This document shows, in pieces, positions 10,625 through 37,470 of a stretch of 37,471 bases of DNA (the stretch's first letter is position 1; each line of letters starts with the position of its first letter). The notes beneath the pieces are model-generated. The model saw nothing but the letters and a program-made list of their open reading frames with translations. It did no database searches and had not been told where the DNA came from. Location of the stretch: IMG/VR virus record IMGVR_UViG_3300023094_000007, positions 1 through 37,471 of that record, one strand, 5' to 3'. Position numbers and translations under genes: made by a program. This DNA comes from a virus.

Positions 10625-10788
10625 AGCCGTCTGTTATAAAAACTGCATGGTGGCACATGATTGAAGATATGCCAGAATTAATAAATATGGCAGATCCTGA
10701 AACAGTCCTTATGTATGTTACAGTTGACGGTCAATTATTAGGAATAGTTACGGTAAACGATTTGCTCAATGGATGCGGGGAAGTATAA
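10615..10788 (+). CDS. 57-residue protein between connector genes
   Basis: ATG 10615 to TAA 10786-10788, overlapping the connector gene by 10 bases and the head-closure gene by 20, filling an otherwise unexplained 144-base gap. The product has WWHMIEDMPELI and then VTVDGQLLGIVTVNDLLNG, resembling a beta-beta-alpha unit of the kind seen in CBS motifs, though one unit alone would not be a nucleotide-binding domain. Unknown function; packed position supports a real gene. Confidence 0.62.
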   Translation: MVLKPSVIKTAWWHMIEDMPELINMADPETVLMYVTVDGQLLGIVTVNDLLNGCGEV

Positions 10789-12930: not shown

Positions 12931-13220
12931 CCGTAAATGACGCTTATGAATTATCTTTTAAGATAGGACTAAAGCCTTTTGAGTTTTACGATCTTACTTG
13001 GAAAGAGTTTGTTTTTTGCGTTAACGGATACTTAGGCAGAGAGAATGATGAGTGGCGCAGAACAAGGGAGTTAATTTACTGGATAAACGCCACTTCAATA
13101 AACCCGGATACAGACAAGAAAAAAGCAGAAGATTTCTTTAGTCTGCCGGGTGATAAATCAACATTCGTTTTTGACGAAGAATATAAACAATCAGCATTAG
13201 ATGCTTTAAAGAATGGCTAA
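12562..13220 (+). CDS. Tail assembly chaperone, frameshifted long form (GT-like)
   Basis: A -1 shift at A AAA AAG (12921-12927) continues into a frame with no start codon of its own, open to TAA 13218-13220, yielding about 219 residues. The added domain runs from VTVNDAYELSFKIGLKPFEFYDLTWKEF-type sequence to ALDALKNG, and the LTxxEF-like segment is typical of T domains. The downstream stop overlaps the tape measure start. Programmed frameshifting at this locus is widely conserved in long-tailed phages. Confidence 0.85.
12921..12927 (+). other. -1 frameshift slippery heptamer A AAA AAG
   Basis: In the chaperone frame the codons read ATA AAA AAA AAG TAA. A AAA AAG is the strong bacterial slippery heptamer (dnaX type), here placed directly before the zero-frame stop. 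Nine As in total (12918-12926) give extra slip options. I did not find an obvious strong stem immediately downstream by eye. Confidence 0.85.
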
Positions 13221-28119: not shown

Positions 28120-28489
28120 GGATATAAAATTTCGAGGACTAACCGAAAAAGGTGAGTGGAAGTATGGAAACCTTCTTAATGAACAAACAATAGGAGAAGT
28201 AGGCAATAACCTATCGCATTATAAATTCGTAACAGTAAATCCCGAAACAGTGGGACAATTTACCGGGCTAAAGGATAATAACGGCGTAGAGATTTACGAA
28301 AATGATTTAGTAAAGGCAAAAGATTGGAATCCATCTGTATTTAAAATAGAATTTATTGAAGGGGGATTTTGTGGGACTTATGAAGGCAATTTAATGCCAA
28401 CGGATATAAATCATTTTTATGATTCAACCGGTTGCCACATTGAAATCATCGGGAACATTCACGAAAACTCCGACCTTTTAACCCCCTAA
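28112..28489 (+). CDS. YopX family protein
   Basis: 125 residues. DIKFRGLTEKGEWKYGNLL, TVNPETVGQFTGLKDNNGVEIYENDLV and a closing IEIIGNIHENSDLL are the full YopX signature. YopX proteins are widespread in phages; their role is unknown. Last gene before the structured leader. A short stem CTTTTA/TAAAAG (28475-28480 with 28487-28492) over the stop may act as a weak terminator. Confidence 0.9.
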   Translation: MGRDIKFRGLTEKGEWKYGNLLNEQTIGEVGNNLSHYKFVTVNPETVGQFTGLKDNNGVEIYENDLVKAKDWNPSVFKIEFIEGGFCGTYEGNLMPTDINHFYDSTGCHIEIIGNIHENSDLLTP

Positions 28490-28492
28490 AAG

Positions 28493-28524
28493 TTTGGAAG
28501 TGTCGTAAACTTTCGGTAGATTAG
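28493..28524 (+). promoter_or_regulatory. Promoter of the recombination/replication genes
   Basis: TTTG (28493-28496), 20 bases, TAGATTAG (28517-28524), one mismatch to TAnnTTTG. Transcription would begin near 28530, so the structured element that follows would be at the very 5' end of the RNA, about 115 bases before the ATPase start. Confidence 0.62.
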
Positions 28525-28529
28525 TATAT

Positions 28530-28628
28530 TGTTATTCCCCTTCTGACATCATAGGGAATTAAAAGAAATTGAAGCCGGTTTAAGGAGGAGAAGTCAGAAG
28601 CTCCCGATTGAGTTGGCTTCTTTATTTT
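28530..28628 (+). ncRNA. Structured leader with possible kissing loops and terminator-like end
   Basis: Hairpin 1: ATTCCC (28534-28539) with GGGAAT (28554-28559). Hairpin 2: GAAGCCGGUUU (28571-28581) with GAGUUGGCUUC (28610-28620), 11 pairs including G-U. The loop of hairpin 1 holds CTTCTGAC (28540-28547), perfectly complementary to GTCAGAAG (28593-28600) in the loop of hairpin 2. Hairpin 2 is followed by TTTATTTT (28621-28628). Read as a leader attenuator or a small RNA of about 100 nt; no known family recognised. Confidence 0.55.
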
Positions 28629-28643
28629 AAAATAATTAGTAAA

Positions 28644-29501
28644 ATGGAATTAAGAAAAGCAACCAGACAGAAGGCGAAGATTCGCCTGGGATTGTCAGCA
28701 GTATCGGGAGGGGGTAAAACAATCTCTTCCTTACTTATCGCTTATGGTATGACCAATGATTGGGACAAAATCTATCTTATTGATAGTGAAAACGGTCGCG
28801 GTGAATTGTACGCAAATGATCAGCGTTTCAATATTGGAGAGTTCAATTACTTGCGTTTAGAAGCTCCATATTCCCCTGAAAGTTACATCAAAGCAATTAA
28901 GATGTGTGAAGATGCAGGAGCAGAGGTTATTATTGTTGATAGCATTACGCATGAGTGGTCTGGCAAAGGGGGTGTATTAGAAATTCATGGAGCCATGACA
29001 GGTAATTCATTTACCAATTGGTCTACAGTAACTCCGAGGCATCAAAAATTCATTGATAGTCTGTTATCTTCTAAATGCCATATCATTACAACCGTTCGCC
29101 GCAAAACAGAGTATGAAATGTCTAAAGATCAGAACGGTAAAATGGTTATTGAAAAAGGCGGACTAAAAGAGGTTACAAGGGATGATTTTGAGTATGAGTT
29201 AACTGTCAATTTGCAATTGGATATTAACCATAATGCAAAAGCGTCGAAGGATAACACCGGATTATTCCAGGATCTTCCTGATTTTGTCGTAACTGTAGAA
29301 ACAGGGAAACAAATATTGGCATGGTGTGAGAGTGGAATTGCACCTATAGTTAGGGATGTGGTCAAAGAATTGAAAGGTGCAAAAAATCTTATTGATCTTC
29401 AGGCAATTTTTACCTTTCTTAATCCTGAAGAAAAAATTACTCATAATGATCTGAAGGATAAAATGAAGGTAAAACTAACACCTGCTTCCGATGGAAAATA
29501 A
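28644..29501 (+). CDS. RecA-like ATPase, Sak4 / AAA_24 type
   Basis: 285 residues from ATG 28644 (a TTG at 28608 lies inside the leader stem). Walker A AVSGGGKT at 19-26, Walker B AEVIIVDSITHEWSG near 95-105, and STVTPRHQKFIDSLLSSKCHIITTVRRKTEY with sensor-like HIITTVR. This matches phage ATPases of the Sak4 group that act with SSB in single-strand annealing. The neighbours Gp157 and SSB support recombination. Overlaps Gp157 by 11 bases. Confidence 0.85.
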   Translation: MELRKATRQKAKIRLGLSAVSGGGKTISSLLIAYGMTNDWDKIYLIDSENGRGELYANDQRFNIGEFNYLRLEAPYSPESYIKAIKMCEDAGAEVIIVDSITHEWSGKGGVLEIHGAMTGNSFTNWSTVTPRHQKFIDSLLSSKCHIITTVRRKTEYEMSKDQNGKMVIEKGGLKEVTRDDFEYELTVNLQLDINHNAKASKDNTGLFQDLPDFVVTVETGKQILAWCESGIAPIVRDVVKELKGAKNLIDLQAIFTFLNPEEKITHNDLKDKMKVKLTPASDGK

Positions 29502-36633: not shown

Positions 36634-37470
36634 ATGAAAACCGTAACATCAGTATCAGGAGGCAGAACTAGTTCTTACATGGCACTAAATTATCCGACTG
36701 ATTATAATATATTTTCGCTTGTAAGGATTGAAGACCCATTATGTGCACCCTCTGATAAAAGTATTATACGTTACGTAGAAGATAAAATCGAAAAACCATT
36801 TATAGCAACTGCGGAAAGTGATAAGACACTTTATGTTCTAAGACAATTAGAGCAGGATTTAGGCAAAGAAATAATTTGGGTTACAGGGAAAACTTTTGAG
36901 CAGTTAATCAGGGATAGCAACGCAAATGGTAATTATCTTCCTAATAGAAGAAAGCGATTTTGCACTCAATTAATGAAACTTGATCCTATATTTTGGTATT
37001 GCTACCTAAACTTAATGGAGAGTGAAGATGATTTTATCTCGATGAACATCGGGTATAGGTCAGATGAAAAAACCCGAAAAGCAACTGACGAATACGACTT
37101 CATAAAAAGCACAAAAAACTTTGGGTTAAGGTATCAGAATCATGAAATAATAGAGTGGCGGGAAAGCCATTTCCCACTAAGGAAAGATAATATAGACCAA
37201 TTCACTATTAGACACTACTTTACACATCTATCAAGTTATGATTTTCCTGTGTATTCTAATTGTGCAGGATGCTTTAATAAAACAGAAAAAGAGTTACAAG
37301 AGCAGTTCGTTTACGAGCCCAATAAGATGGCGTGGTTTAAACGAATGGAAGAGATAACCGGCAGCAGGTGGAACATATCCGCTACTTTATCTCAAATAGA
37401 ACAGATGGAGTTTACGGAAGAGCAAGTATCCGAAATGTCACGATATGAAACATGCAATTGTACAGATTAA
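36634..37470 (+). CDS. PAPS-reductase-like PP-loop protein
   Basis: 278 residues. SGGRTSSYMA at residues 8-17 is the PP-loop (SGGxxS) of adenylating enzymes. RRKRFCTQLMKLDPI and CAGCFNKTEKELQ with the Cys-rich end TCNCTD recall the PAPS reductase/DndC group, where Cys bind a 4Fe-4S cluster or relay sulfur. Phage genes of this type occur widely; DNA modification or sulfur-related tRNA/cofactor roles are possible. It crosses the circle junction: the end is repeated at 1-126. Confidence 0.82.
   Translation: MKTVTSVSGGRTSSYMALNYPTDYNIFSLVRIEDPLCAPSDKSIIRYVEDKIEKPFIATAESDKTLYVLRQLEQDLGKEIIWVTGKTFEQLIRDSNANGNYLPNRRKRFCTQLMKLDPIFWYCYLNLMESEDDFISMNIGYRSDEKTRKATDEYDFIKSTKNFGLRYQNHEIIEWRESHFPLRKDNIDQFTIRHYFTHLSSYDFPVYSNCAGCFNKTEKELQEQFVYEPNKMAWFKRMEEITGSRWNISATLSQIEQMEFTEEQVSEMSRYETCNCTD

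Follow-up and report, generated by a model that had tools for sequence, protein, structure and literature searches.

A conserved kissing-loop RNA, putatively a leader of replication operons, in viruses of Bacteroidota bacteria

In the aptamer of the purine riboswitch, two kissing hairpin loops organize the RNA ahead of a terminator. The autoregulatory pseudoknot of T4 gene 32 is of the H type and acts by translational repression, with no terminator. The putRNA of phage HK022 has 73 nt and two stem-loops (PMC9378689). And in flavobacteria, 64 structured 5' regions have been reported (PMC9723704).

Here we describe an RNA element from the window, by which we mean the entire 37,471-nucleotide stretch of viral DNA that we analyzed (IMG/VR record IMGVR_UViG_3300023094_000007). 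As judged by sequence comparison, the element represents a conserved RNA family that has no Rfam match and was previously uncatalogued, and many viruses of Bacteroidota bacteria carry this RNA. As in the purine riboswitch, two hairpin loops kiss, here ahead of a terminator-like stem. But the kissing hairpins of the riboswitch are arms of a three-way junction, while those of the element are in tandem; also, the element's kissing sequence drifts and we saw no conserved core for a ligand pocket. The likeness to T4 gene 32 (a pseudoknotted 5' region of a phage mRNA, ahead of a replication or recombination gene) is by description only. The element resembles HK022 putL and putR (PMC9378689) in that it is a phage RNA of similar size, made from an operon's first transcribed bases, with two stem-loops, and that it would act in cis. 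The put sites differ in sequence and in the host polymerase, and they lack a terminal U-tract. We know of no conserved kissing loops in put RNA. The 5' cis-regulatory leaders and attenuators of flavobacteria (PMC9723704) share with the element a sigma-A start, a structured leader, and a terminator-like stem before the first ORF. However, they belong to host amino-acid operons, tRNA synthetases and others, and the element is found in phage replication operons; it has no conserved leader peptide, and it has a covarying loop-loop helix.

The element in the window

The element lies just upstream of a Sak4-like gene, and the features are:

28493..28496, + strand: −33-like TTTG of a Bacteroidota sigma-A promoter (TTTG/TAnnTTTG consensus, PMC7366714), with a 20-nt spacer to TAGATTAG
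28517..28532, + strand: −7 region with two candidate boxes, TAGATTAG and TATATTGT
28534..28559, + strand: P1 hairpin, ATTCCC/GGGAAT (arms 28534-28539 and 28554-28559), with the 14-nt loop CTTCTGACATCATA
28540..28547, + strand: 5' partner of the kissing helix, CTTCTGAC (loop-loop covariation and a test unselected for the loops)
28560..28570, + strand: A-rich linker between P1 and P2, 11 nt in the window (from the family's linker lengths)
28571..28620, + strand: P2 stem GAAGCCGGTTTAA/TTGAGTTGGCTTC, with the internal loop GGA/CGA and with P3 inside (fold and covariation)
28587..28604, + strand: P3 hairpin, GGAG/CTCC, with the 10-nt loop AAGTCAGAAG (fold and covariation)
28593..28600, + strand: 3' partner of the kissing helix, GTCAGAAG (loop-loop covariation and a test unselected for the loops)
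28621..28628, + strand: U-tract TTTATTTT, which makes P2 resemble an intrinsic terminator (T-rich tail in the family)
28644..29501, + strand: gene for a Sak4-like AAA_24 ATPase, the first after the leader, at the head of a recombination/replication run

An earlier note on this DNA had placed TTTG-N20-TAGATTAG, two hairpins and a tail at 28493-28628, and all of these are where it put them. It had also stated that eight bases of loop 1 are perfectly complementary to eight bases of loop 2, and we verified this for CTTCTGAC and GTCAGAAG; by our arithmetic, the chance of an 8-mer match between given loops of 14 and 10 nt is about 3e-4. Hairpin 2 (13 + 4 bp) is followed by a U-tract, as described there, and a T-rich tail is common to the family. 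From TTTATTTT to the ATG of the Sak4-like gene is 15 nt.

The window's sequence alone is unconvincing as a structured RNA. The energy of its fold is ordinary for its composition (z = −0.99), with 40 of 200 shuffles folding equally well, and a simple terminator scan of the window did not call P2. The element is beyond chance because it is conserved in relatives. The covariance models of Rfam 15 gave no match in the window at the gathering threshold; against the 601 nt around the element, we obtained only chance-level matches to snoRNA and miRNA models (best E 0.72), and 12 loci with homologues had zero matches at E ≤ 1. The 154-base gap that contains the element had been described as unusually large, but 12931-13212 likewise has no listed + strand ORF of at least 40 aa.

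When we compared the DNA of the window region to named phages, we found only matches to the YopX gene and chance matches. The 3' end of the upstream YopX-like gene (28440-28480) has a 40-nt stretch of about 85% similarity to the YopX genes of phages of Streptococcus and Latilactobacillus. The end of the window (36634-37470) encodes a protein similar to phosphoadenosine phosphosulfate reductase (phrog_424).

Relatives and covariation

A scan of viral contigs for the pattern CTTCTGAC...GTCAGAAG gave mostly chance matches, but a few matches could be aligned with the window along all 100 nt. In these, the stems differ and still pair, the first loop has 14 nt and the second has 10 nt, and the U-tract is right before an ATG. 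A stricter second pattern identified further members, and BLAST with one member identified Tenacibaculum phage Gundel_1 and Cellulophaga phage phi19:1, in which both loops have changed (GCTCTCAC/GTGAGAGC and GTACGAC/GTCGTAC) and the perfect pairing is kept. In total, we have 53 distinct elements, some in viral contigs and others in named phages, and they have one architecture. The named carriers are Cellulophaga phages phi18:3 and phi19:1, Tenacibaculum phage Gundel_1, and Flavobacterium phages FL-1 and snusmum6-1, and the element is unannotated in all of them. Every certain member comes from a viral contig or a phage record, and the named ones infect Flavobacteriia (Cellulophaga, Tenacibaculum, and Flavobacterium). 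In the literature that we covered, mostly open-access papers, we did not find a description of such an RNA.

A covariance-model search for the element in prophages of 396 Bacteroidota genomes was empty, which is weak evidence, with 10 candidates scored per genome. Searching the 396 genomes by pattern produced two matches, neither with loop complementarity. Matches to the CTTCTGAC pattern in a genome collection (L162-L172) were rejected: they come from unrelated phyla, chance would give about as many, and they disagree with the structure. We also set aside covariance-model matches on the opposite strand in L208 and L192 (E 0.04-0.07) as antisense echoes.

MAFFT placed P2 out of register, so we realigned the 53 members with a small covariance model with a hand-made structure (R1), and we entered the kissing helix as a pseudoknot. 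In this alignment, which was fitted to the stems and includes some members that were collected by patterns that fix the kissing sequence or the linker and internal loop, standard pairs fill 97.7% of the pair cells (versus 70.5% in shuffles) and two-sided changes are seen at 27 of 28 pairs. P1 and P3 are hardly constrained by the search patterns and P2 is constrained just at its inner end; the kissing helix played no part in how the larger set was selected. The covariation score is 0.680, compared to 0.177 if shuffled and at most 0.135 with slid partners: sliding the partners by 1–3 columns abolishes the signal. P1 is 99.2% paired (5/5 pairs covary), P2 is 96.1% paired (11/11), and P3 is 99.5% paired (4/4). 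The loop-loop helix, which had been suggested to be a kissing loop or pseudoknot, is 98.2% paired, with two-sided changes in relatives at 7 of 8 pairs. Conservation and covariation, on which the earlier note had said that its proposal should be judged, are very strong among the 53 members for all three stems and for the loop-loop helix.

A third pattern used just the linker and the internal loop of P2 and left the hairpin loops free. Among its distinct candidates, loop-loop complementarity of at least 7 nt was present in 29 of the 31 with a perfect TAnnTTTG at the right distance, versus 2 of the 61 without. One of the two box-bearing exceptions (L203) has an 8-bp loop pairing with a single G-U, and both of the positives without a perfect box (L208 and L220) have near-consensus boxes. 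On Markov-randomized copies of the same 2.5 Mb, our custom scanner gave one match above threshold. By these comparisons, the predicted two-hairpin kissing-loop RNA is confirmed to be real and to be conserved across relatives, far beyond chance.

The shared order is a sigma-A TAnnTTTG, P1 with a loop of ~14 nt, an A-rich linker, P2 with an internal P3 (loop of ~10 nt), and a U-tract. From the start of P1 to the end of P2 is 84–96 nt. Loop 1 has 14 nt in 34 of the 53 distinct elements and loop 2 has 10 nt in 42 of them; the linker is 8–17 nt, mostly 13–14 (mode 13), and is 53% A. The commonest internal loop in P2 is UGAA/GGAU, instead of the window's GGA/CGA or the GGA/AAA of snusmum6-1. The kissing helix has 7–9 bp, with duplex energies of around −10 kcal/mol, and its sequences come in at least 22 different versions with the complementarity kept. 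Because the kissing sequence adjoins P1 on its own 5' side and P3 on its own 3' side, P1, the kissing helix, and P3 could form one continuous stack, which the linker would span.

Among the three named genomes that we searched, two have one clear copy and Gundel_1 has two. The second element of Gundel_1 (L309, NC_062747.1; 16730-16910) is divergent. It is at 16.79 kb, between DnaA-like and primosomal genes and directly before the gene for the primosomal protein, and has the box TATATTTG, GTAGGATTC in a hairpin loop, and GAATCCTAC in the loop of the terminator-like stem. Its kissing bases are placed elsewhere in the loops, which suggests a putative second subtype; 11629-11730 of L237 looks similar. 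L237 has another element at 10626-10724, and the two have differing kissing sequences and are each before their own gene. The elements of L239 (1295-1393 and 3701-3795) also have a gene and a kissing sequence each.

Promoter, tail, and downstream genes

Of 59 distinct upstream regions, 48 have a perfect TAnnTTTG ahead of P1, at a distance of 4–7 nt in nearly all cases. In flavobacterial sigma-A promoters, this box spans −12 to −5, and F. psychrophilum has both TAnnTTTG and an alternative, TAnnTTGY (PMC9723704), so the RNA would start at P1 or a few bases before it. In the window, TAGATTAG (28517-28524) matches TAnnTTTG at 5 of 6 positions and TATATTGT (28525-28532) fits TAnnTTGY. The proposal of a promoter here is borne out by the conserved box upstream of the element across the family, but the proposed start near 28530 is uncertain: the RNA may begin near 28529 (from TAGATTAG) or near 28537 (from TATATTGT).

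Among 51 distinct members, the tail after P2 has a T at position 1 in 46, at position 2 in 49, and at position 3 in 50. The P2 hairpin has a median energy of −14.8 kcal/mol (range −5.3 to −20.4) and is AU-rich in many members. Together, P2 and the U-tract would form an intrinsic terminator in vivo.

A same-strand ORF follows the element in 66 of the 66 listed elements, nearly always within about 50 nt. For 50 of the 66, the first to third ORF includes a member of one similarity cluster (replication-initiator/DnaD-like). The cluster members that we tested match DUF6291 or DUF7833 and are at the usual position of a replication initiator; the usual companion is a DnaB-like ATPase, and the record for Cellulophaga phage phi18:3 has a protein annotated as a DnaD-like helicase loader. 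Proteins with DUF6291 (PF19808) or DUF7833 (PF25200) adjoin DnaB-like genes in, for instance, L161, L118, and L208, and in phages they are likely to be replication initiators or helicase loaders. A minority of the elements precede an SNF2/DEAD helicase, HNH endonucleases, or an antirepressor. Genes for HNH/NUMOD4-type endonucleases are found directly after the leader or one gene later in L221, L261, L284, L214, L239 (the 3701 copy), and L173, a placement that looks like insertion of homing genes between leader and operon.

In the window, the operon after the element includes Sak4, Gp157/Gam-like, helicase, nuclease, and DnaB/primase-like genes. A link to Sak4, Gp157 and SSB genes, which the earlier note had drawn, holds in this window but not in general: most homologues precede DnaD-like (DUF6291/DUF7833) and DnaB-like replication genes, and relatives of the window's Sak4 protein lack the RNA. 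(We fetched 32 Sak4 relatives and found the element in 0 of the 31 upstream regions that we read, and a covariance-model search of the whole records of six of the relatives was empty.) So the RNA is not tied to Sak4.

In many members, the UGAA internal loop contains an AUG, which is missing from the window and from phi19:1. In L063, L070, L238, and L254, this AUG is in frame with the downstream gene with no stop between, so some annotations would begin the protein inside the RNA element.

How the RNA may act

We propose, with a probability of roughly 0.55, that the element is a 5' leader that gates a phage recombination/replication operon by a choice between termination and read-through, or attenuation in the broad sense. 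The element lies between a promoter and a same-strand ORF and its last stem is followed by a U-tract. This order (promoter, folded RNA, terminator-like stem, and start codon) suggests a leader that controls read-through into the operon. P2 and the ORF are so close that a second promoter would hardly fit between them, and transcription of the gene must therefore pass through P2. It had been left open whether the element is a small RNA or an attenuator; its conserved placement directly before a same-strand ORF favors a cis-acting leader or attenuator, with release of a small RNA as the rival.

The host's RNA polymerase would start at the sigma-A promoter. Because the −7 box of this promoter adjoins the element, the transcript would start at P1 or shortly before it. 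The first hairpin to fold would be P1, with the 5' kissing sequence exposed. When P3 comes out of the polymerase, its loop would form 7–9 bp with loop 1 to give a compact stack of P1, kissing helix, and P3, bridged by the A-rich linker. P2 would close next and, with the U-tract, would act as an intrinsic terminator a short way ahead of the start codon. The kissing fold may then set the efficiency of termination at P2 or may be recognized by a factor that releases it. Comparison establishes the leader's position, its promoter and U-tract, and the fold with its kissing helix; the regulation of read-through, its direction, and its trigger we infer. Against attenuation are the AU-rich P2 of many members, the terminator scan of the window that passed P2 over, and the minority of elements that precede HNH, helicase, or antirepressor genes; and in the family, we did not find a conserved alternative (antiterminator) pairing, a ligand pocket, or a leader peptide. 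When we inspected the leader sequences, the reading frames from the AUG of the internal loop were not conserved (some are 2 to more than 17 codons long, and others enter the gene), so we rejected a leader-peptide attenuator.

We also considered that the element might be a stand-alone small RNA of ~90–100 nt that ends at the U-tract and acts in trans, with leakage accounting for expression of the downstream gene. Its tight length would fit, and having its own promoter and a terminator-like end is usual for the intergenic sRNAs of Bacteroides (PMC7366714). However, this seems unlikely given the many recodings of the loops, which make it impossible for them to pair with a conserved target in trans, and given that a same-strand ORF, often a replication gene, is always close downstream. 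Nor did we find a conserved unpaired seed; the remaining conservation is in the linker and internal loop and was partly selected by the search pattern. Less likely still, by analogy with put, the nascent kissing fold might stay on RNA polymerase and let it pass downstream terminators or pauses. Like putRNA, the element would be at the very start of a phage operon's transcript, is of similar size, and has two stem-loops that would fold there, and its compact fold is conserved by structure and not by sequence. Against this proposal are the terminator-like U-tract at the element's end, which putRNA lacks, and the element's being mostly before replication genes instead of at every early promoter.

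If the 5'-terminal kissing fold shields the end of the mRNA and P2 controls the ribosome's access to the start codon, then the element would be a leader for translation or stability, perhaps with an autoregulatory role such as the pseudoknot of T4 gene 32 has. This would explain why the start codon is close behind P2, why the RNA would start at P1, and why the downstream operons encode DNA-binding replication proteins; but the tail after P2 is strongly T, not A, as one would sooner expect of a terminator than of an initiation region rich in A, and we rank this below the put-like proposal. Finally, the inverted repeats could be DNA operators, or the complementarity could be by chance, and there might be no function as RNA. 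Considered alone, the window would agree, as it folds no better than shuffles. But this is contradicted by the covariation and by the test of the loops in candidates that were not selected for them: the stem and loop pairings covary independently, the lengths and the order are conserved, and slid partners lose the signal. So we consider it very improbable.

It is possible, albeit doubtful, that the element represents a phage-specific class of kissing-loop RNAs that, while emerging, bind RNA polymerase, some factor of the phage or the host, or a small molecule and so turn on the replication operon. Its loop-loop helix would then be a freely recodable address that prevents pairing between the two copies in a genome.

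Phages of Bacteroidota are abundant and their gene regulation is poorly known, and the leader would give a direct handle on the timing of their replication. Because the element is present in named, cultured phages, this can be tested now. RNA biophysics could also draw on the recodable loop-loop helix, whose versions are a ready-made set of natural kissing pairs.
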